DNA from: Deltaproteobacteria bacterium
Lineage (GTDB): Bacteria > Myxococcota > Myxococcia > Myxococcales > Anaeromyxobacteraceae
Length of the DNA stretch: 64,000 nt
Reading direction: 5' to 3'
NCBI GenBank assembly: GCA_016214955.1
Contig: JACRMN010000012.1
Location: 735,901-799,900 of the forward strand
Part shown: positions 51,746-61,637 of the stretch, piece by piece
Numbering within the stretch: the first letter of the stretch is position 1
How the letters are laid out: each line of letters begins with the position of its first letter
The notes under the pieces: model-generated
What the model was told of the DNA's origin: nothing
The model's input: only the letters and a program-made list of their open reading frames with translations
Databases searched by the model: none
Translations under genes and position numbers: made by a program

Positions 51746-52121
51746 CGCCGGAGCCGTCTGGACGAACGCGTCGGAACTCGTGTCCGCCGAGGAAAGTCCG
51801 GGCACCACAGGGCAGGGTGCCGGTCAACGACCGGCCGGGGCGACCCGCGGGAAAGTGCCACAGAGAACAGACCGCCGAACGGCGCCGAGAGGCGCGCGTG
51901 GCAAGGGTGAAACGGTGCGGTAAGAGCGCACCGCACTCCTGGTGACAGGAGTGGCACGGCAAACCCCACCCGGTGCAAGAGCAAATAGGGAGGCGAGCGG
52001 CCCGCTCCAAGCCTCCGGGTACGGCTCGCTGGAGGCGCGCGGCAACGCGCGTCCGAGAGGAATGTTCGTCGCCGGGGGATTTCCCCCGGAACAGAACCCG
52101 GCTTACAGGGCGGCTCCGGCA
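51746..52121 (+). ncRNA. rnpB: RNase P RNA (M1-type, class A)
   Basis: About 376 bases. It contains the universal blocks GAGGAAAGTCCGGGCACC (near 51788) and ACAGAACCCGGCTTACAG (from 52091). The P1 helix is formed by the 5' GCCGGAGCCG and 3' CGGCTCCGGC (ending 52120). GGCAAACCCCACCCGGTGCAAG, AGCAAATAG and GAGAGGAATG are further conserved pieces. It is the ribozyme that matures tRNA 5' ends. Its last 30 bases double as the left attachment site of the integrated element, and the gene remains intact. Confidence 0.96.
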
Positions 52122-52126
52122 TTTGT
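52097..52126. repeat. attL core: direct repeat in the rnpB 3' end
   Basis: A 30-base sequence beginning CCCGGCTTACAGGGCGG and ending CGGCATTTGT recurs exactly at 61540-61569. This copy completes rnpB. The first mismatch after it is A (52127) versus T (61570). Confidence 0.95.
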
Positions 52127-52139
52127 ACTGATGTGGCAG

Positions 52140-53321
52140 CTACTTGGACCCCTGGGCTGCTGGGGCCCTGCCCAAAGACTGCCCAAGGGGCACCGGAACA
52201 GCGTCGCCGGCGGCCAGGTCGAGGTCGAGGACGGCCATGTCCTTTGGGGTGAAGAGCTCTGGCTTCAGGTGGGCGTACCGCTCGGTCATGACTACCGAGT
52301 AGTGGCCGAGGATCTCCTTCAGCTTCTCGATGCTGCCGCCGGCCATGACCCATTGGCTGGCGAAGCTGTGCCTCGTGGCCTCGTACCAGCCGAGGCCGGG
52401 GCGGGCGAGGCCGAGCGCCTTCAGGACGGGGCGCAGGAAGCTGCCCGGCGTCGCCTTATCGATCTTCTTGCCGTCGCTGCGGAGCGGCGGGATGACGAGC
52501 CCCTCGCCGCCGGACTTCAGCTTCCACCCCGCCAGGATGGGGAGCAGCGGATCGAGGATCGGGACGACCCTGCTGTCCTTGTCCTTGAGCGGCCCTTTCA
52601 CCGACTCGCGGACGTGGATGCGGCGGGCCGCGAGGTCCACGTGGAGCCACTTCAGGGCGAAGATCTCGCCCGTCCGCAGCCCGGCCAGCACGCCGAGCGC
52701 GTAGGCGATGCTGATGGGCAGGGGCAACAGCAGGAAGATGCGTCTGATGTCGGCCAACTTCTCGATGAAGGGCGTGGTGCGGGGGTCGTGCGTCGGCTTC
52801 ATGAGCCGCCTGGTCGAGCGAGGCAGCCCGTGACACGGGTTGGCGGTCGCGACCCCGTCCTCCACCAGGTTGGCGAAGAGCGCCGAGAGCAGCGCCACGA
52901 GGATGCGGATGGTGGCCGGGTTGAGCCCCTCGGACAGTTTGACCTCGACGAAGTGGCGGACGAGCGAGGCGTTCACCTCGTGCGGCTTCTTGGCGCCGAA
53001 CCAGGGGGCGAGGTGCTTCTTCCACCGGCCCCTGTCGGTGTCGGCGGCCCGATGGGTGAGGTCGCGTGCGTCCAGGAACGGGCCGGCGAGCACGTGGAGC
53101 TGCGGCATACCCCTCGGGTCGGGGGGCAGCCCTGCGCGGCCGGTGGCAACGTCGCCGGCGATCCTGGCGAGCACCCGCTGGGCCAGCTCCCGGGTGGCGA
53201 AGCCGCCCTGGTAGCGGCGCTGACCCGCCTCCCGCCACCGGATAGCCCAGGTGCCACCGGGGAGCTCCGGCGCCACGAGCTGCCCGCCGCCGTGAGGGCG
53301 GCGCCTTCTGCGTCTTGCCAT
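52140..53321 (-). CDS. int: Tyrosine recombinase (phage-type integrase)
   Basis: The product is 393 aa. An N-terminal arm-binding region (APELPGGTWAIRWREAGQRRYQGGFATRELAQRVL) is followed by a core-binding SAM-like domain (about 80-180). The catalytic domain is visible: AGLRTGEIFALKW (Arg I), YEATRHSFASQW (box II Arg and His), and LGHYSVVMTERYAHL (His and nucleophilic Tyr). The first box II position is Glu rather than His, a variation seen in this subgroup. Its stop lies 14 bases from the att core. ATG 53321 follows GGAGGAG. It integrates and excises the element. Confidence 0.94.
   Translation of the reverse strand: MARRRRRRPHGGGQLVAPELPGGTWAIRWREAGQRRYQGGFATRELAQRVLARIAGDVATGRAGLPPDPRGMPQLHVLAGPFLDARDLTHRAADTDRGRWKKHLAPWFGAKKPHEVNASLVRHFVEVKLSEGLNPATIRILVALLSALFANLVEDGVATANPCHGLPRSTRRLMKPTHDPRTTPFIEKLADIRRIFLLLPLPISIAYALGVLAGLRTGEIFALKWLHVDLAARRIHVRESVKGPLKDKDSRVVPILDPLLPILAGWKLKSGGEGLVIPPLRSDGKKIDKATPGSFLRPVLKALGLARPGLGWYEATRHSFASQWVMAGGSIEKLKEILGHYSVVMTERYAHLKPELFTPKDMAVLDLDLAAGDAVPVPLGQSLGRAPAAQGSK
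52168..52186. repeat. Arm-site candidate, left end
   Basis: CTGCCCAAAGACTGCCCAA contains CTGCCCAA twice and matches 18 of 19 bases of a copy near the right end (61403-61421), in the same orientation. It lies 42 bases inside the left att core, within the 3' end of the integrase gene. Tandem copies in this place are typical of integrase arm sites. Confidence 0.6.
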
Positions 53322-53396
53322 GATGCACTCCTCCTGCCGCCGTGGCGGCGTTGTGGTGGTTGGACATCTCGTTGGTGGAGACGAGCTCGGCGGCGG

Positions 53397-53735
53397 TCAC
53401 CGAGGCCGACGAGCAGCCTCGGCCAGGCGCACCACGTCGGCGGCGTCGGCGTGGCGGAGGACGGCCAGGTCGATCCGGACGGCGCGCCCGACCCGGACGA
53501 CTGGGAGGTCCCCCGCGCGGATGCGGCGGCGCAGGGTGGAGACGCTCACCCCGAGCCGCCTGGCGGCCTCAGGGAGGGTGACCGCTGTCGGCGGGGACGA
53601 CCGGCGGAGCGCGGTGACCTCCTCGTGCAGCGAGCGGACCTCGGCCTCCAGCGAGGCCAGCCGCGACGGCACCTCCAGGAGCGCGGCGAGCGCCCCAGCG
53701 ATGCCGTCGATGAGCTGGCCCGGCCGCTCAGCCAT
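53397..53735 (-). CDS. Excisionase/HTH-like DNA-binding protein
   Basis: The product is 112 aa. Residues ~1-50 form a coiled-coil helix pair (IDGIAGALAALLEVPSRLASLEAEVRSLHEEVTALRR). The rest is a MerR-type helix-turn-helix (VTLPEAARRLGVSVSTLRRRIRAGDLPVVRVGRAVRIDLAVL) as in excisionases and plasmid helix-turn-helix proteins. ATG 53735 overlaps the end of the polymerase gene by eight bases, and the integrase begins 75 bases further on. Likely directionality factor or repressor for excision. Confidence 0.75.
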   Translation of the reverse strand: MAERPGQLIDGIAGALAALLEVPSRLASLEAEVRSLHEEVTALRRSSPPTAVTLPEAARRLGVSVSTLRRRIRAGDLPVVRVGRAVRIDLAVLRHADAADVVRLAEAARRPR

Positions 53736-56004
53736 CCTCGCCCTCGGCGACGGGCATCGTGGCGAGGATCTGCTCCACGGTGGAGATCGAGACGCCGGTC
53801 TCGTGGGCGACCTCTTCGACGGTGCGACCATCGGCGAGCAGCCGCGTGACGATGCGGAACAGGCTCGCCTGCCGCTGGGCGTCGCGGCGCTCGGCCTTGC
53901 GGCGGGCCTTGAGCGCCTGCCGCTCGCCGCTCTCCATCGCCCCGATGGTGTCGTAGGGCACGGTGCCGGTGGACCCGGTGAAGAGGTTCACGTCGCGGTC
54001 GAGCAACCGCCGCTTCGAGTCCCAGTTGAAGGTGGTGCGGTGCGGCTCGGCGACTTCCTCGTTGATGGCGCGGCCGAGACGCACGGCCTCGTGAGCGCCG
54101 AGGCGACGGGTCCGGACCCGCTCCGGGGCCGCGTCGGCCTCGCTGGCAAGGGAGGTGAGGATCGTCCCGGCGAACTCCTCCGTCGTCTCCGACGAGCCGT
54201 GGCGCGCCGTCTTGATGACCGCCCAGGTGCCGTCGGCCGCGATGACCTGCTGCCCCGTCTTGACGTTCTGCGGCCGCCGCAGCAAGGCGTAGCAGCGATT
54301 CCGCACGATGAAGACGCCGTCGGCGGCGTGCTCCAGGCGCATGTCGGAACCGGCGGCGCGGAGCTCGGCGAGGCCGGGGCACATGATGTCCGCGTCCGGC
54401 GCGACCAGCACCGCGTCGGTGCTCACCAGCACCGCCCGGCCGGCGGCGCAGATGTCGCCCATGATCGCCCTGCCGCGCCCGATGATGAGGGCGGCCCACT
54501 CGGGCGCGAAGAGCGAGCCAGCGTCGGTCGTGCGCTGGAGCGCCTGGTGCAGCGCACTCGAACCCGCCACGGCAGCGCCAAGGCCGGCCGAGAAGCCCTG
54601 GAGCTGGGCGGCGCGCTCGAAGTCGAGCAGCGAGGAGCCGCCGAACCGCTCAGCCAGCTTGCCGATGAGCGCGTTCGCGAGGAGCTTGGCCGTCTCGTAG
54701 GGGATGGACCCCTTCGCGGCGGCCGCCTTGTCGGCGAGCAGCTCGCGCATGTAGCGGGCGAGGTCGTGCTGGCGCTCGCTCGCACCCGGCTCGAAGACGT
54801 GGCTGTCGAGGATGCGGATCGTGGCCCCGAACCGCAGGGCCACGCGGAGCTCAGCGACGGTGCAGGTCGAGACGCCGCGCCGGGTGAAGAGCATGCGGTT
54901 CACGCCGTCCCGAACGGTCGGCAGGTTGGGGTAGTCGAAGCCCGGCGGGAACTCGAACTCGATGTGGACGAAGCCCTCGACCCGGTCCACCTCGGCGACG
55001 TCGCGGAGTGGGCGCCACCGCGTGCGGTGGTGCGGGAGCGGCTGGATGATGGCCGCGTGCGGGTAGAGCGAGACGGCGTCGAGCTCCACCAGCGGCTCGA
55101 CGAGAAGGCCGCGCCGGAAGGCGATCATCATGCCGCCCCAGAGCGCCCGCGCCGCCGCGACGCGGACGTCGGGATTGCCGGCGAAGACCCTCTCGTTGCG
55201 CCGCTCGTCGCGGAAGCCCGTCGACGAGCGCCGCTTCTTGACCGTCTTGCGCTGCCTCCAGGGCGCGGGCCCCGTCTTGGCGAAGCGCGTGATGAAGATC
55301 CGGCCGGCAAGCGACGCGAGCGTGCGGTTGCGGAGCGGGTCGACGTCCCAGCGTGAGAGGAGCCGGACCCGGAACTGGTGGAAGGCGAGGGCCACGACCG
55401 CTACCGTGCGTCCCTCGCGGGCGAGCCGGGTGGCCGCCGGCGCGTCCACCATGGTGGAGAGGTGCTGGATGACCTCCTCGACGGACGGGAAGTTGATGAA
55501 GCTGCCGACCTCCTCGGTGTCGTAGTCCAGGAAGAAGGCCGAGAAGTCGATGAGCGACAGCGCGAGGCGGACTTCGCCGACGCCGACCGGGGCGAAGTCG
55601 GCATGGTGGATGTCGGCGCCCACCTGGCGGATGCGGGCCGCGCGGGTGGGCCGGTCGATACGGGCCAGGACGGCCTTACCGTTCATCGCGACGAGGAAGA
55701 CGCGACCCACGCGCCTCTTGGTCGGCACCGCTATCCCGACCTTGAAGAGCAACTGGCTGATGGTGGCGGCGAGGGTGTCGGTGGAGATCGTGGCGCCGGG
55801 CACGGTCACCGTCTCGACCATCGCGGTGCCGTTCACGACGACAGCCATGCGGATGTCGGTGCCGGCGGCGGCGCCATCCACGCGGGCGACGAGCTCGACG
55901 CCGACGACGGGCGCGTTGATCGGCGGCATCGCGGGCGGTCGACGGGGCACCAGGGTCCGGACGAGGAGCAGGGCCATCAGCGCCATCACGGCGGCCTCAT
56001 GCAT
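53728..56004 (-). CDS. Family B DNA polymerase (protein-primed/primer-independent type) with C-terminal HTH
   Basis: The product is about 758 aa. Motif A is LDAVSLYP (Asp ~309), motif B KLLANALIGKLAERF (~440), motif C VSTDAVLVA (Asp ~530), and the post-C block DGVFIVRNRCYALL resembles KxY. ALWGG at ~287-291 fits the YxGG motif that links exonuclease and polymerase lobes in protein-primed PolB. Exonuclease motifs are not convincingly found in the N-terminal 280 residues. A helix-turn-helix lies at ~726-745 (TVEEVAHETGVSISTVEQIL). The start is uncertain (open to 56109; ATG 55926 possible). Expected to copy the element; the motifs fit piPolB or a divergent rolling-PolB. Confidence 0.82.
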   Translation of the reverse strand: MHEAAVMALMALLLVRTLVPRRPPAMPPINAPVVGVELVARVDGAAAGTDIRMAVVVNGTAMVETVTVPGATISTDTLAATISQLLFKVGIAVPTKRRVGRVFLVAMNGKAVLARIDRPTRAARIRQVGADIHHADFAPVGVGEVRLALSLIDFSAFFLDYDTEEVGSFINFPSVEEVIQHLSTMVDAPAATRLAREGRTVAVVALAFHQFRVRLLSRWDVDPLRNRTLASLAGRIFITRFAKTGPAPWRQRKTVKKRRSSTGFRDERRNERVFAGNPDVRVAAARALWGGMMIAFRRGLLVEPLVELDAVSLYPHAAIIQPLPHHRTRWRPLRDVAEVDRVEGFVHIEFEFPPGFDYPNLPTVRDGVNRMLFTRRGVSTCTVAELRVALRFGATIRILDSHVFEPGASERQHDLARYMRELLADKAAAAKGSIPYETAKLLANALIGKLAERFGGSSLLDFERAAQLQGFSAGLGAAVAGSSALHQALQRTTDAGSLFAPEWAALIIGRGRAIMGDICAAGRAVLVSTDAVLVAPDADIMCPGLAELRAAGSDMRLEHAADGVFIVRNRCYALLRRPQNVKTGQQVIAADGTWAVIKTARHGSSETTEEFAGTILTSLASEADAAPERVRTRRLGAHEAVRLGRAINEEVAEPHRTTFNWDSKRRLLDRDVNLFTGSTGTVPYDTIGAMESGERQALKARRKAERRDAQRQASLFRIVTRLLADGRTVEEVAHETGVSISTVEQILATMPVAEGEDG

Positions 56005-56110
56005 GGCGGGCCCCCGAGCCGTTGGTGGCGAAGGCGTCCGAAGCGCCGAGAGACGCATCCCCATACAACACCAGGGGATTCCCCAATCCACCCCCAACGG
56101 AACGCGCATT

Positions 56111-56131
56111 AGGGGGCGACAACCGCCCCCT
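56111..56131. promoter_or_regulatory. Hairpin AGGGGGCG-ACAAC-CGCCCCCT
   Basis: Perfect eight-base stem with a five-base loop, 107 bases upstream of the polymerase start. It could be a terminator for the upstream minus-strand gene or a control element for replication; no T tract follows. Confidence 0.45.
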
Positions 56132-56147
56132 CATCGAGTTCCCGAAG

Positions 56148-56279
56148 GTGAAGGTGCTGGTGGTGGTGTTCTTGTTGTTGGTGCTGGCGGTGTTGGTCTT
56201 CGCGAGCTGCATGCGCGGCCTCCTCATGGTGAGGAGGCCGTTCTCGCCGATGGGCTTGATGTGCCAAGCCCGGCGGTGA
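56148..56279 (+). CDS. Possible small single-pass membrane protein
   Basis: About 43 aa from GTG 56148: VKVLVVVFLLLVLAVLVFASC, a clear membrane helix with a lipobox-like VFASC, then a basic tail. The frame is open upstream to 56022, so the start is unsure, and no good ribosome site is seen. It runs opposite to its neighbours. Reported because the hydrophobic pattern is unlikely by chance. Confidence 0.35.
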   Translation: MKVLVVVFLLLVLAVLVFASCMRGLLMVRRPFSPMGLMCQARR

Positions 56280-56344
56280 TCCGTGATGGTGTGCGGGGGC
56301 TGGGCAGCCCGGAACGGCGATTCGCGATCCGGGCTGGGCTTCGC

Positions 56345-57121
56345 CTATGAGGCGTCTTCCGGGTCGTCCAGGGGCTCGTCCAGCAGCTTCTCAACGAAGG
56401 GGACGAGACCCCTTTGGACGTCGCGCTTGAGCTGGTCCCAGGCGCGCTGCCGGGCATGAGTTCCGTCGGCGGTCGTCACCTGGTCCCGCTCGAACTCCTC
56501 GTGATCGAGATGGAGGGCGAGGGCCGCAAGCTCCCCGGAGGTCGGGGCGGGGAGCTTCTTCCGCTTCGCCCAGATCAGCACGCAGGCGCAGAACATCTGG
56601 CGCGGGGATCGCATGGTGGCGAGCCGCTTCTTCGCCCGCGCGTCCACACCGAGCACACGACGCAGTCGTGTCACGAGTTCGAGAAGCGGGCCAAGGTCCG
56701 CCGTGAACTGGAGCATCTCGGCGCCGACGGCGGAGAGCGGCGCGAGCACGTCCGTGGCGCGCGTCCGTGAGCGCCCGTGGGCGAGGCGCACGCCGTGGGG
56801 GTTGACCCGATCATGCAGCCTCTCGGCGTAGGTGATCTCGGTCTCCTGCTCGCGGTCCGAGCTGAAGGCGATCCAGGAATCCTTCGGGACCTTCGCCTCG
56901 GGTGCCTTCAGCAGACCGTGCTTCCCGGTGATGTAGTTGCGGTACGGGTAGAAGTAGCCCACGACCTCGGCGAGGTTGACCCCGAGCTCGCCGGCGCGGA
57001 CGAGCGCGTCGATCTGGGCGTCGCTGCGGTCCTTCTTGAGGAACGACCTGGCGGAGGTCTTGTCCGACAGCCACTTCGAGTCCAGCGACGGCCCCTTGGG
57101 CTGCCTCGGTGCACGAGCCAC
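56345..57121 (-). CDS. Element protein of unknown function, 258 aa
   Basis: GTG 57121 follows GGAGG. It is mostly helical with a Tyr-rich segment (VVGYFYPYRNYITGKHG) near residue 54. Arg/Lys-rich helices (about 160-185, LRRVLGVDARAKKRLATMRSPRQMFCACVLIWAKRKK) and an acidic C-terminus (LDEPLDDPEDAS) follow. I do not recognise the family. It precedes the polymerase in the same direction and may be an accessory replication or DNA-binding protein. Confidence 0.6.
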   Translation of the reverse strand: MARAPRQPKGPSLDSKWLSDKTSARSFLKKDRSDAQIDALVRAGELGVNLAEVVGYFYPYRNYITGKHGLLKAPEAKVPKDSWIAFSSDREQETEITYAERLHDRVNPHGVRLAHGRSRTRATDVLAPLSAVGAEMLQFTADLGPLLELVTRLRRVLGVDARAKKRLATMRSPRQMFCACVLIWAKRKKLPAPTSGELAALALHLDHEEFERDQVTTADGTHARQRAWDQLKRDVQRGLVPFVEKLLDEPLDDPEDAS

Positions 57122-57281
57122 GGTTCCGCCTCCTCGTGCGCCAGCGGGCGCGGCGGTCCTCGTAGGTAAGAACTTGGGGCAGGCCGCCGAGGAGACGGCC
57201 GTTCGGGCCGCGAACCCTAGCCCCGCGCCGATGCTGGCACGGGCGGGGCCCGGTGCTCAACGGCGTCCAGCATGAACTGCA

Positions 57282-57313
57282 CGGGGCACCCGCCGTTCGG
57301 GCCGGGTGCCCCG
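57282..57313 (-). terminator. Strong hairpin after the 34-aa gene
   Basis: CGGGGCACCCG and CGGGTGCCCCG form an eleven-base perfect stem with a ten-base loop, six bases beyond the stop of the small gene. Lacks a T tract; probably a transcription end or mRNA-stability element. Confidence 0.55.
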
Positions 57314-57319
57314 CTCCGT

Positions 57320-57424
57320 CTACCGCCCCGTCCGTCTCCGCTTTGTCTGCGACGCGACTACCGTGAGCACGGCGAGCGCGATCTCGACGAGGATCGGTAG
57401 GCGAACGGCACGCCACCACTTCAT
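57320..57424 (-). CDS. Small membrane protein, 34 aa
   Basis: The sequence starts MKWWRAVRLPILVEIAL and ends with the basic tail TKRRRTGR. One short membrane helix (LPILVEIALAVLTVVA) follows a positively charged N-terminus. ATG 57424 is preceded by GGAGGACGTCC, a strong ribosome site. It lies 76 bases after the sigma-like gene in the same direction and is followed by a hairpin. Too short for family assignment; holin- or toxin-like small proteins are possible but nothing shows this. Confidence 0.55.
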   Translation of the reverse strand: MKWWRAVRLPILVEIALAVLTVVASQTKRRRTGR

Positions 57425-57500
57425 GGACGTCCTCCGGCTCCCGCTGGCGCCAGCGGAAGAGGGTGGTGAAGCCGGAGGGCGGCGACTTAGACGGTGAAGG

Positions 57501-58157
57501 TCAGGTCGCGACGGCAACCGCCATCGGCATCGAGGAGCACCGCCGACAACGGCGCCGGCCCGGGATGGTCATGCCGGCCCGGCGGGCCAGCTCCTGTCCG
57601 AGCCGCTTGAGTCGGGAGAACACGGCGGAGATGGACATGCCGGTCGCCGCCGCCACCTCCGCGAGCGTGGCCCCCGAGAACCGGGTCGTGACGAGCTCGC
57701 GGTCCCGCGCCGAGAGGGCCGCGACCCAGTCGCGCAGATCGACGGCCGAGGCGAGCGTGTCGGCGGGATCCGCCGACGTGGCGGCGAGCCACGCCGACTG
57801 GAGGTCGGTGTCGCCCTCGCCGTTGAAGTCGCCGTCGTCGTCGAGCAGGCCGTCGAGCCTGTGGACGACGACCTTGCCGTCGACAAAGTTCGCGAAGTGC
57901 AGCGCGTCCCGTCGCGGTTGACCGCCGCGCGGGAGCTGACGCCGGTGGTCGATGGCCCGGAGCTTCACCGCGTGGACGAGCAGGGCGTTGTCCAGCTTGA
58001 TGCCCAGCTCGGCCTTCCGGGCCGCCATGGCCCAGACCTGGCCGATGGCCTCGGCCATGCGGTCGTCCTGGTCGGTGGGGGTGAGGTGGCGGCGCACGGA
58101 CTCGAACGCGCCGCGCTCTACGAGCGTGGAGAACTGCTGCTGCAACGCCTGCATCAT
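57501..58157 (-). CDS. Sigma-70-like regulator
   Basis: The product is 218 aa. Region 2-like helices occur near 30-75 (DRMAEAIGQVWAMAARKAELGIKLDNALLVHAVKLRAIDHRRQ), resembling the sigma core-binding region. A region 4-like HTH lies at about 145-190 (LSARDRELVTTRFSGATLAEVAAATGMSISAVFSRLKRLGQELARR). The intervening 60 residues are unusual and acidic (LDDDGDFNGEGDTD). ATG 58157 follows GGAGG. A mobile-element sigma factor could switch on the element's genes or act as an anti-host regulator; regions are shorter than in classical ECF factors. Confidence 0.68.
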   Translation of the reverse strand: MMQALQQQFSTLVERGAFESVRRHLTPTDQDDRMAEAIGQVWAMAARKAELGIKLDNALLVHAVKLRAIDHRRQLPRGGQPRRDALHFANFVDGKVVVHRLDGLLDDDGDFNGEGDTDLQSAWLAATSADPADTLASAVDLRDWVAALSARDRELVTTRFSGATLAEVAAATGMSISAVFSRLKRLGQELARRAGMTIPGRRRCRRCSSMPMAVAVAT

Positions 58158-58643
58158 GGTGGGCCTCCGGCCGCACCAGGGCAGACGGAGGCCTCGCCGG
58201 TCGGCGCGGGCATCCGCGCCATGGCCGGCGAGGTGAGGGTGGAGCGCGGCCCCTCATGGCCAACGGGGAGGTCCCGAGGCTGAAGGTCCGGCAGGGCCTG
58301 GTGCCCGAGAGCACCTGGTCCTATGTCCTTATCCCTAGAAGTTGCGGGGACTTGGCCGCCATCGGGGCCGAATCCCCTGGGGGCCCCGGATCACCACCGG
58401 GCCAAGAAACTTCGATGTAGGGGGTGGCGGTGGGGGTCGACTCGGCGAGCCGGAGGTGGAGTCCCGGCGCTGGTGGACCAGAAGAAGGACTCGAACGGTT
58501 GGCGGACCCCCTCGCGCGAGGCCCCGGCACAGGGAACCCTGTCCCCCCTGCGCCGGGCCGGATTCGCGTCGAAGGTAGCCCTCGGGCCAGGCGAGGCGCG
58601 GGCGGCCTCGCCGAGCGAACCCGACGACGTGGGTGCCGGCCCC
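58158..58643. other. Intergenic stretch between the sigma-like gene and the 289-aa gene
   Basis: No gene can be supported in these 486 bases. It includes a moderately AT-rich part (58315-58350) and a stretch on the minus strand ending GTTCGAGTCCTTCTTCTGGTCCACCA that mimics a tRNA 3' end. It is the longest open gap inside the element and the best place for a replication origin. Confidence 0.4.
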
Positions 58644-59513
58644 CTACGACACGATGCGAAGGCGCACGGCGTAGTCGCGGGCACGGCCCGGCTCGGCGGC
58701 CCCGGCGACCGCCGACAACGCCTTCAACTTCTCGAACGCCGCGAGCAGCCGGGCGAGGCTCTCCTCCAGCTGCTTGCGGTAGCGGCCCAGCCTCGTGAGC
58801 TCGCCGCCGTCCGGGAGCGCGAGGCGGGCGAGGACGTCCCTCCGCATCTGCGCGAGTGCGTCCTCCTGCCTCCCCGCAAGCTCCCCGACCTGCTCCCGCA
58901 GCGCCTCGGCGGCGCGGCGAAGCGCGTGGTAGGGCTCCTGCGGCACGGGGTCGAGCCCGACGTCGGCGAGGAGCTCCAGGGCCCGCTGCATGTCGACGAG
59001 CGGCGCGAGCGGGACCCCGTCGAGGCCGTCCAGGTGCTCCGCCAGCGCCCGCGCCCCGGCGAGCAGGCCAGCGAAGGCGTCCGTGCGCGGGCCGGCGACG
59101 GGACAATCCCGGAGGGCAGCGACGAGGGCGCCGAGCGCGGCGACCGCGTCCCGCGTCCTCGACGCGAGCCGGTGGAGGTCGCTCTGCTCCACGAGCTCCT
59201 CCACGCGCGCCCCGAGGAGCCCGTCCTCGATTCGCTGGAGCCGCTGGAGCCTCCAGACAACGTCGCCGGCGAGCGCGGCGACCTCGGCCTGGGCGTCGTT
59301 CTCCGGCCCGAGCGCCACGAACCAGGACTCGACGTGGGCCTCGTACCGGGCCTGGTCCTCGCCGCCGAGGAGCAGGTGCTTCGCCGCGAGGCCGTGCCGG
59401 ATGCTGTTCAGGGCGGCGCGCGCCCGGCCCTCGGGGCTCGTGGGACCCCTTGATGTCGCGCCGTTGCGCCGCGATGCAGCCTGCTGTGCGGGTGAGCGGG
59501 AGCCCTCAATCAT
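58644..59513 (-). CDS. Helical protein with RRNG...SPEGRARAALNSIRHGL motif
   Basis: The product is about 289 aa. The N-terminus RRNGATSRGPTSPEGRARAALNSIRHGLAAKHLLL resembles a widespread short motif (N-G-x-x-S-x-G-P-x-T/S-x-E-G-K/R) at the start of many bacterial proteins of unknown function. The remainder is a long Ala/Leu/Arg-rich helical domain. ATG 59513 gives the motif a reasonable position; the frame extends to 59609. It may bind DNA or RNA through the basic N-terminus. It is the rightmost minus-strand gene of the element. Confidence 0.62.
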   Translation of the reverse strand: MIEGSRSPAQQAASRRNGATSRGPTSPEGRARAALNSIRHGLAAKHLLLGGEDQARYEAHVESWFVALGPENDAQAEVAALAGDVVWRLQRLQRIEDGLLGARVEELVEQSDLHRLASRTRDAVAALGALVAALRDCPVAGPRTDAFAGLLAGARALAEHLDGLDGVPLAPLVDMQRALELLADVGLDPVPQEPYHALRRAAEALREQVGELAGRQEDALAQMRRDVLARLALPDGGELTRLGRYRKQLEESLARLLAAFEKLKALSAVAGAAEPGRARDYAVRLRIVS

Positions 59514-59732
59514 GGGTTCAGTGTCCCCAGGCGGGTGCCCGGTGGGAAGGACAGGTTGTCCGCCCCGTAGGGTGGGCCCCGGAGGCCCAATCCCCCCCCC
59601 CATCGCCACGGCTCACACTAGCAGCTAGCGAAGGAGAACGACGGGGGCTTCACGGGCGGGTCGGTGGCGCGACTCCGCCCGCGTGTCGCACGGTCCGCCT
59701 CGTGGCGACGACCGACGCTCGAAGGGGGAAAC
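59514..59732. other. Divergent region with a C10 run
   Basis: A 219-base region between divergent genes. It holds a run of ten C (59592-59601), probably the start signals of both genes, and GAAGGGGGAAAC directly before the Kelch gene. No further gene seen. Confidence 0.5.
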
Positions 59733-61208
59733 ATGACAACGGCCAGGACCCGGATCGCGCTCGCGGCGGCCATGATTCTTGCGGCTGGGCTTGGGTGCAG
59801 CAGCAAGTCCAGTGAAACCTACTCGATCGGCGGAACGATCACGGGGCTCACCACGGCGGGCCTCGTGCTCGGATCCACCGGGCAACCCGACCTGACGATT
59901 CCGGCAGGGCAGACAAGCTTCGCGTTCGCGAACAAGGTCGCCAGCGGGACGCGCTACGACGTGATCGTGGTGGCTCAAGCGTCGCAGGGGTCCTGCTCCG
60001 TGACGAGGGGAGCGGGTGTCGTGGCCGGAGCGGACGTCACCAGCGTCGTCGTCACGTGCGACGGGAGTCTCTCAAGTGACTTCAGCGGCCCCCTCAACGT
60101 CGCTCGCGCGTTCTACTTCACCGCGATTGTACTTCCTGGCCGTTCCCCCTCCTGGCCGAACGACGACAAGGTGCTCGTGGCGGGCGGGCATACTGGCAGC
60201 GACGCGGTGACCGCCAGCGCGGAGGTCTTCAACCCCCGTACCGGCAAGTGGACCATGGCCGCCTCGATGACGGTGCCACGCGCCTCGGCGTGCTCCGCGC
60301 TGCTCCCCTCTGGAAAGGTCCTCGTCGCCGGTGGGGCTGGTGCCGTCGGGAACACGGCGGAGGTCTATGACCCCGCCACCGACACCTGGACGCCCACCGA
60401 TCACCCGATGGCCGCCGGGCATGATCTCCCAGGGTGCGTGGTGCTTGCGTCTGGCAAGGTGCTCATCGCCGGTGGCCTGAATCAGGTGAACACGGGGAGC
60501 AACGCCGTGTCCGAGCTCTACGACCCCGAGACGGGCACGTTCACGACGACCGGTCCAATGGTGACGGCTCGATACTGGCACACCGCTACCGAGCTTCCGA
60601 GCGGCAAGGTCCTGGTTACCGGGGGATGCACCGGCGGGTACCCGTGCACGGCAACGACCGCCACGGCGGAGCTCTATGACCCCGTGAGCGGGACGTGGTC
60701 GGCGACCGGTGACCTGCCGGCCGGGGTCTTCGGGCACACCGCCACGAGCGTTCCCGACGGCGTACTCGTGGTCGGAGGCTGCAAGAGCGACGATGCGTGC
60801 GGTCCCACGGGAGCGCACACGGGGAACGCCGAGAAGGCCGCGAGCCTCTACCACCCCACGACCGGGGCATTCGAGGCTGCAGGCGAGATGACCACGGGGC
60901 GCGTGGGCCACGCCGTCGCATTTGTCGACCAGGGCTTCCGGTTCTTCGGCGGAACGTACGGTGCCGAAGGCAGCCGGACCACGGACGTCTACGGGTGGGA
61001 CGGGGCTACCTGGGCGTGGACGGCGGCAGGACCCCTGACGATCGCCGACCACGGGAGCTACCTCCAAGCTGTAAGGGGATACATGTACGAGGGTGAGTGG
61101 GGGCAGAACGGCCCTTACTGGCTCGTGATCGGGGGGCTCGTGTCATCGGCGGGAACGTATTCGCCCACAGCGGCCGTCGAGGGGGCCTTTGAATGCTGCT
61201 CGAACTGA
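59733..61208 (+). CDS. Kelch-repeat lipoprotein
   Basis: The product is 491 aa. A signal peptide ends in lipobox LAAGLGC. Residues ~30-115 form a beta-rich IG-like unit (YSIGGTITGLTTAGLVLG...). Residues ~130-470 are Kelch/galactose-oxidase-like repeats: KVLVAGGHTGS, GKVLVAGGAG, KVLIAGGLNQ, GKVLVTGGCTGG and VLVVGGCKSD, each followed by a motif like AELYDP(V/E)(S/T)GTW. Five to six blades of a beta-propeller are visible. It sits at the right end on the plus strand, unlike the rest, so it looks like cargo. The GC content is a little lower. Confidence 0.85.
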   Translation: MTTARTRIALAAAMILAAGLGCSSKSSETYSIGGTITGLTTAGLVLGSTGQPDLTIPAGQTSFAFANKVASGTRYDVIVVAQASQGSCSVTRGAGVVAGADVTSVVVTCDGSLSSDFSGPLNVARAFYFTAIVLPGRSPSWPNDDKVLVAGGHTGSDAVTASAEVFNPRTGKWTMAASMTVPRASACSALLPSGKVLVAGGAGAVGNTAEVYDPATDTWTPTDHPMAAGHDLPGCVVLASGKVLIAGGLNQVNTGSNAVSELYDPETGTFTTTGPMVTARYWHTATELPSGKVLVTGGCTGGYPCTATTATAELYDPVSGTWSATGDLPAGVFGHTATSVPDGVLVVGGCKSDDACGPTGAHTGNAEKAASLYHPTTGAFEAAGEMTTGRVGHAVAFVDQGFRFFGGTYGAEGSRTTDVYGWDGATWAWTAAGPLTIADHGSYLQAVRGYMYEGEWGQNGPYWLVIGGLVSSAGTYSPTAAVEGAFECCSN

Positions 61209-61365
61209 TGACGGCCTCTCCTTTCGCCATCGCCCCCGCCGCCTGTGCGTGGTTGTCACTCTGGGTGGCCGCGAACGACGGTGCGAGACTTCGATGACCC
61301 GACCGCTCGGCCCACGGGCCCAGGGGAGCGCGCGGGAGCACCGGCGACCCGCGCCGTGTCGGGGG

Positions 61366-61392
61366 CCCCGCTCTCAACGGAGGAGAGCGGGG
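61366..61392 (+). terminator. Terminator-like hairpin after the Kelch gene
   Basis: CCCCGCTCTC pairs with GAGAGCGGGG (ten bases) around AACGGAG. CTTCCC follows rather than a T run, so efficiency is uncertain. It lies 158 bases after the Kelch stop codon. Confidence 0.55.
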
Positions 61393-61402
61393 CTTCCCGC
61401 GC

Positions 61403-61421
61403 CTGCCCAAACACTGCCCAA
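61403..61421. repeat. Arm-site candidate, right end
   Basis: CTGCCCAAACACTGCCCAA differs from the left-end copy (52168-52186) by one base and has the same orientation. It is 118 bases from attR. Likely recognised by the integrase N-terminal domain. Confidence 0.6.
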
Positions 61422-61493
61422 CGGTTGGCCGGAGCCGCCCACCGGGGCGTCCCAGGGGTGGCCACGCCCCGCCGCCAGGTGCCCGAGATAGCT

Positions 61494-61522
61494 ACGCCTG
61501 ACCACCGGGAGCGGTCAGGCGT
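61494..61522. repeat. Inverted repeat next to attR
   Basis: ACGCCTGACC and GGTCAGGCGT form a ten-base perfect stem with nine bases between, 17 bases before the attR core. Could be a recombination directionality or host-factor site. Confidence 0.5.
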
Positions 61523-61539
61523 GTTCACCCACGGGCGAC

Positions 61540-61569
61540 CCCGGCTTACAGGGCGGCTCCGGCATTTGT
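61540..61569. repeat. attR core: second copy of the rnpB 3' end
   Basis: Exact 30-base copy of 52097-52126, begins CCCGGCTTACAGGGCGG. It is a truncated rnpB tail only; the upstream bases do not match rnpB beyond two or three positions. Confidence 0.95.
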
Positions 61570-61637
61570 TCACCGCTCACGCCGCTCACGCGCCATCCGC
61601 CGACGCGTCCCTTGGCGATGGCGCGCCGCCGCTCCGC

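Follow-up and report, generated by a model that had tools for sequence, protein, structure and literature searches.

An integrated element at the 3' end of rnpB

The window, by which we mean the whole 64,000-nt stretch of DNA analysed here, contains at 52097-61569 an element of ~9.4 kb (about 9.44 kb) that looks intact. We regard this interval as an integrated element because its ends are exact att repeats and because it is missing from the relative G037, in which rnpB is followed within ~12 bases by sequence corresponding to window position 61631 and leading into a DUF1428 gene. From the integrase end, the genes run in the order tyrosine recombinase, HTH_17 excisionase-like protein, family-B DNA polymerase (PolB), orphan gene, sigma-70 region-4-like protein, the gene at 58644-59609 and Kelch cargo:

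51750-52121, plus strand: rnpB (RNase P RNA, class A), a host gene that is targeted for integration at its 3' end (Rfam RF00010, 279.9 bits)
52097-52126, no strand: integrase-side att copy, CCCGGCTTACAGGGCGGCTCCGGCATTTGT, made up of the rnpB 3' end and 5 further bp; these 30 bp recur exactly, in direct orientation, at 61540-61569 (33 bp at 97%)
52140-53321, minus strand: tyrosine recombinase (integrase), 393 aa (PF00589, 5e-15; phrog_1 integrase, 3e-44)
53397-53735, minus strand: excisionase-like HTH_17 protein, 112 aa (PF12728, 8e-10; TIGR01764 excise, 1e-9; phrog_66 excisionase, 4e-11)
53728-56004, minus strand: family-B DNA polymerase, 758 aa (Pfam, translation, alignment, hhalign, tree)
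56345-57121, minus strand: orphan gene encoding 258 aa, upstream of PolB (L002 has a homologue with 84% identity; dN/dS 0.30)
57501-58157, minus strand: sigma-70 region-4-like protein, 218 aa (PF08281, 9e-6; the L020 element has a homologue with 63% identity)
58644-59609, minus strand: predicted protein, with relatives near PolB in L016, L017 and L020 too
59664-61208, plus strand: Kelch-repeat protein, 514 aa, cargo (PF13964, 2.5e-30)
61540-61569, no strand: distal att copy and far end of the element (exact repeat; empty site in G037)

Against the relative L002, the integrase gives a dN/dS of 0.22. The orphan protein (56345-57121) is without any Pfam or PHROG match. The sigma-70 region-4-like gene, common to this element and the one at L020, may control element genes; a scan for sigma-70 promoters found none, and such a scan is uninformative at 72% G+C. 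PADLOC recognized no convincing defence gene, its single weak match (mads_1) being to the sigma-like protein.

A 23-nt direct repeat lies inside both element ends (52167-52189 and 61402-61424), and the right end (61400-61569, ~170 bp) is 77-78% conserved beside rnpB-type att copies in G046 and G033 (L063, L064). The conserved right end and the 23-nt repeat are possible arm sites of the integrase.

The polymerase and its domains

Spurious ORFs are numerous in the 72%-G+C DNA of the window, overlapping one another on both strands. We take the ORF at 53728-56004 to be real because it has a full-length homologue of 91% identity (L002, in G043), matches DNA_pol_B_2 in a Pfam scan (E=7e-10), has a G+C content of 0.71/0.50/0.95 at the three codon positions, and gives a dN/dS of 0.33 against L002, its nearest relative (0.26 for the polymerase part alone). 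The frame stays open upstream of 56004, to 56109, and we accept the start at 56004 because the Met starts of relatives align there (MHEAAVMALMALLLVRTLVP / MNEKDLETHLGLLLSRTLSP). The source genome has a single copy of PolB. In a distant Myxococcota genome, a weak DNA_pol_B_2 match (G013:C9:11184-11321) lies inside a 770-aa frame.

The features of the protein, all encoded on the minus strand, are as follows:

55369-55914, minus strand: exonuclease-like domain, residues 31-212, from which the catalytic residues of ExoI, ExoII and ExoIII are gone (aligned with intact relatives and with the piPolB and pPolB references)
55132-55146, minus strand: YxGG-type motif ALWGG, residues 287-291 (translation and alignment)
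55060-55083, minus strand: motif A, LDAVSLYP, residues 308-315, with catalytic D309, invariant across the family alignment
54643-54687, minus strand: motif B, KLLANALIGKLAERF, residues 440-454, with K440, N444, G448 and K449 invariant across the family alignment
54412-54423, minus strand: motif C, STDA, residues 528-531, with D530 as the catalytic residue; like piPolBs, it lacks the first Asp (alignment)
54295-54303, minus strand: RxR (R568-N-R570) at the position of the piPolB KTRG (alignment)
53755-53904, minus strand: C-terminal helix-turn-helix (HTH), residues 701-750 (Pfam HTH matches; AlphaFold2 block means mostly 72-80)

Motifs A, B and C and ALWGG, named in a preliminary description made from the letters of the DNA, are thus all found in the translation and the family alignment, in the right order. 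D530 is as invariant among family members as D309 and the motif B residues. The wider motif C stretch reads VSTDAVLVA (residues 527-535), and every Myxococcota family member aligned has STDA, the first Asp being absent (STD, not DTD). The preliminary description had mentioned neither the strand, nor this missing Asp, nor the element around the gene.

The same description saw no proofreading motifs, including the Asp-x-Glu of ExoI, and set its reading against an ordinary exonuclease fold. The absence of the motifs is borne out by alignment: where ExoI-keeping relatives read GFDTEW, the window polymerase reads GVELVA. The fold is a half-truth, since the N-terminal region does align with the exonuclease domains of relatives (L020, L019), while the catalytic residues are lost in the window's subclade. 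The AlphaFold2 model of the window polymerase is too poor (pLDDT 34) to show this fold, which we therefore judged from homology alone. The relative L020 keeps an intact exonuclease (ExoI FDTE, ExoII N...D, ExoIII YxxxD), and L019 retains ExoI and ExoIII. In the window and L002, ExoI reads GVELV, the ExoII Asp is replaced by Val112, and the ExoIII Tyr and Asp by Glu197 and Val201; from L015, L017 and L018, ExoI and ExoII are gone, together with the Tyr of ExoIII. Because L020 retains all the motifs that the window's subclade has lost, the window polymerase appears to have an exonuclease domain that is present by homology and yet dead.

The five exonuclease-dead polymerases (window, L002, L015, L017, L018) form a single clade in the tree, with support of 99/99. 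Since the members of this clade come from two families of host (f1 and f6) and have integrases of two types, the simplest account of the alignment would place the loss before the split of the clade; independent losses are also conceivable. Between L015 and L017, nonsynonymous and synonymous codon changes stand at 6:1 in the exonuclease part and 2:16 in the polymerase part (p=0.001), whereas the window and L002 show no significant difference (19:18 and 31:44; p=0.42), so that the codon comparison indicates relaxed constraint on the exonuclease part for the L015/L017 pair only.

The C-terminal HTH of the preliminary description has also held up. Pfam HTH matches fall at approximately residues 726-747 (the best, HTH_15, at E=8e-6, marginally below the curated cut-off), and the AlphaFold model is good at residues ~701-752 only, which it shows as HTH helices. 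The HTH is placed past the conserved C-terminal polymerase motif as a separate segment, and alignment and Pfam find it in the intact family members. That it binds an origin would be a guess; a search within the element for iterons or tandem repeats that might form one returned nothing but the Kelch repeats and short chance matches rich in G+C.

Kinship with the polymerases of pipolins

The alignment proposed in the preliminary description, with phi29-type and pipolin PolBs, places the family nearer the latter. Our references for piPolB, the primer-independent polymerase of pipolins, came from plasmids of pipolin-carrier species named in PMC9710591 (S. epidermidis, L. fermentum) and their relatives. 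Compared by hhalign, the family aligns with these plasmid pipolin PolBs over 607 columns, from the exonuclease to the C-terminus (E 3.8e-20), and with pPolBs (phi29/Cp-1/PRD1-type) over 411 columns (E 2.7e-7); piPolB against pPolB, for scale, gives 8.6e-10. When rPolBs (E. coli Pol II, T4 gp43) serve as the outgroup of a tree, the Myxococcota clade groups with the piPolBs (95/94) as the sister of the reference set, not nested within it. Sequence identity to the reference piPolBs is low (~24-29% for the matches on plasmids). We searched 195 Myxococcota genomes with a profile built from five Bacillota and Fusobacteriota piPolBs, and it found this family exclusively, in seven genomes, with E-values of 1e-7 to 1e-13, values that come from a substitute profile and are to be read beside the ExplorePipolin criterion for piPolB of E<1e-50. 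The window polymerase itself is unmatched by this profile at E<=1e-3.

Much of the anatomy is shared. Pipolins and their polymerases (S. epidermidis pSE-12228-03, L. fermentum pLME300, E. coli pipolins) likewise have a motif C without its first Asp, a noted trait of highly active piPolBs (PMC7544198), and the piPolB references share the GGRNExF region and the C-terminal (W/Y/F)DxKR...TxP(Y/F) motif. Like E. coli pipolins, which combine a tyrosine recombinase with directly repeated att sites at the gene of a stable RNA (PMC7385651), the window element has the tyrosine recombinase typical of pipolins, often accompanied there by an excisionase-like protein, and att-like repeats overlapping a tRNA-type gene are found here too (rnpB in the window and L020, tRNA-Pro in L017 and L021). 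There are also differences. Motif C is STDA in the window family and TTDG or VTDG in the references (Gly to Ala), and the polymerase is shorter, at 758 aa versus ~1000-1150 for piPolBs. Unlike the pipolin references, the window element has a C-terminal HTH on its polymerase, lost exonuclease residues (in this subclade), integration at rnpB and an excisionase-like gene overlapping polB.

The KTRG motif is reportedly the defining motif of piPolB as described in 2017. All family members have RxR where the references have KTR(G) or RTR, so that KTRG is only partly kept, and because RxR replaces it, primer-free initiation should not be assumed. Since motif C, the recombinase and the att repeats agree with pipolins, while the phylogeny gives a sister group and KTRG is replaced, we describe the element as a pipolin-like variant by anatomy and do not file its polymerase as a piPolB.

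The shared palm motifs also bring in the protein-primed polymerases of phi29/PRD1 type, and the Pfam family matched, DNA_pol_B_2, is an organellar and viral one that includes such enzymes. The polymerase might then belong, with a terminal protein, to a linear element or provirus. Those polymerases, however, have DTDS at motif C where this family has STDA, and they come with a terminal protein gene, for which we found no candidate in the form of an upstream gene common to all elements, and with linear inverted-repeat ends, where the ends here are the direct att repeats of a site-specific recombinase. A pPolB profile matched no member of the family, or anything else, in the 195 Myxococcota genomes, an empty answer that is weak by itself, and viral contigs and phage records yielded no relatives of the polymerase by the searches used. 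We consider protein priming most unlikely. A casposon was also considered and rejected, as no Cas1 occurs among the element proteins scanned and the integrase is a tyrosine recombinase.

Outside the Myxococcota, a Pseudosulfitobacter plasmid (NZ_CP087043; L025, 3761-9356) carries a piPolB-like gene with TTDG and KTRG that is split by an IS66 element and sits between integrase and mobC/relaxase genes; its C-terminus looks HTH-like by eye and has no Pfam match.

Excision, exchange of modules and a proposed cycle

In the window, the ATG of the excisionase-like gene and the stop of PolB overlap by 8 nt. The start lies at -7 from the end of the PolB stop in the window, L002, L015-L018 and L021, at -10 in L020 and at -3 in L022, so that PolB and an excisionase-type HTH_17 gene overlap at nine loci. 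This conserved overlap argues that the two genes are co-expressed. At L019, the PolB is without the C-terminal HTH and runs on into an HTH_17 domain, giving a PolB-excisionase fusion whose HTH_17 domain is 56% identical (E 7e-38) to the separate excisionase-like protein of L022; the fusion gene also has one in-frame stop. The fusion suggests a physical link between PolB and excision, and overlap and fusion together speak for a connection to excision no less than for one to an origin.

The window polymerase finds matches (E<=1e-3) in 11 of the 195 Myxococcota genomes, all belonging to the same order, some being fragments or weak. Full or nearly full polymerases occur in G000, G043 (L002), G047 (L020, ~36% identical to the window polymerase), G092/L015, G090/L017, G065/L016, G137/L018 and G100/L019, and fragment-only or weak matches in G091, G048 and a second G065 copy; the last, L022, is a C-terminal polymerase fragment near tmRNA. 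Single in-frame stops are present in G065/L016 (TGA), G137/L018 (TAG) and G100/L019 (TAA), and the G122/L021 polymerase is interrupted. With six of ten related loci damaged by an in-frame stop, an interruption or reduction to fragments, the system appears to decay frequently.

Stops or breaks in several relatives, and exonuclease motifs that are gone, would suit a decaying relic, an inactive polymerase in a dead element. Yet both the window copy and L002, its relative of 91% identity, are intact, and the polymerase part has the dN/dS of 0.26; D309, D530 and the motif B residues are invariant; and the element retains identical att copies and an integrase with the low dN/dS given above. A relic therefore seems to us very unlikely.

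Element ends vary among the relatives: tRNA-Pro repeats bound the elements at L017 (51-bp) and L021 (50-bp), copies of the rnpB 3' end bound that at L020, and at L015 and L018 a tRNA-Pro adjoins the integrase, with no second copy found in the stretch examined. Integrases and polymerases also differ in their closest kin. The integrases of the window and of L020 share 87% identity, whereas the window polymerase is closer (43%) to Myxococcaceae-type polymerases, whose integrases are only ~25% identical. Against L002, dS is 0.12 in PolB (53731-56004) and 0.46 in the integrase (52143-53321), a contrast that suggests recombination within the element. From the discordant identities and this difference in dS, we infer that polymerases have been switched between integrase backbones. 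Other genomes have related integrases beside rnpB without this PolB, and rnpB looks like a recurrent integration hotspot with elements partly in arrays. Extra copies of the rnpB 3' end were seen in genomes of the same family (L020 3582-3611, 4518-4547 and 18883-18912; G046, G033 and G045), with related integrases in some.

We propose, with a probability of roughly 0.7, that this is an exonuclease-deficient, HTH-tailed, pipolin-like element which is excised as a circle by Int/Xis and whose own polymerase primes and/or copies that circle. The tyrosine recombinase and the excisionase-like protein would move the element into and out of the rnpB 3' end. Upon induction, the run of polB, excisionase-like and integrase genes would be expressed and the element would be cut out in circular form by Int and Xis. 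The polymerase, kept on element DNA by its C-terminal HTH, would then prime and/or copy the circle ahead of reintegration or transfer, and it may be able to start without a primer. Loss of the 3'-5' exonuclease active site in the window's subclade, with the polymerase domain remaining constrained, would make this synthesis non-proofreading.

Absence of proofreading would also suit lesion bypass, and the polymerase could instead serve damage tolerance by translesion synthesis rather than element replication, with the HTH as a regulator. For piPolB, whose benefit to pipolins is unclear, a part in the host's tolerance of damage has been suggested (PMC9710591); archaeal B2 polymerases of translesion synthesis likewise lack the exonuclease and the first motif C Asp (PMC7544198); and constraint on the polymerase domain persists. 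Archaeal and bacterial B2/G2 PolBs as a whole share degenerate exonuclease motifs and a single motif C Asp (PMC7544198), and we set them apart by the mobile-element context and the piPolB kinship found here. The polymerase, however, accompanies an excisionase-like gene and an integrase, several times within intact att ends, and a gene so patchily distributed and so often decayed is more easily understood as part of a selfish element than as a host function. We regard damage tolerance as improbable.

Excision and copying of a circle may be coupled still more tightly. The polymerase, piPolB-like, HTH-tailed and devoid of proofreading, could represent a new mobile-element lineage wired physically and translationally to excision. 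Its synthesis would start at the att junction of the excised element, or at an origin close by, making excision and replication one regulated step, a doubtful extension in our estimation. That polB and the excisionase-like gene overlap in the elements compared, and are fused in one, does predict a role of the polymerase at or after excision, and the HTH offers a handle on the DNA site at which the polymerase is aimed. Exonuclease-intact and exonuclease-dead relatives form a natural set with which to ask what proofreading is for. Our search found no relevant paper on rnpB islands or on Myxococcota pipolins, which is not proof of absence; with the present element, pipolin-like elements reach this phylum and gain rnpB as a target, in a form which the 5-piPolB profile misses in the window copy.

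Beside PolB, L017 and L019 carry a trio of DUF2169, ketoacyl-synthase-like and PAAR-like genes, of a kind met with in type VI secretion. At L017, this trio lies between the tRNA-Pro att copies.
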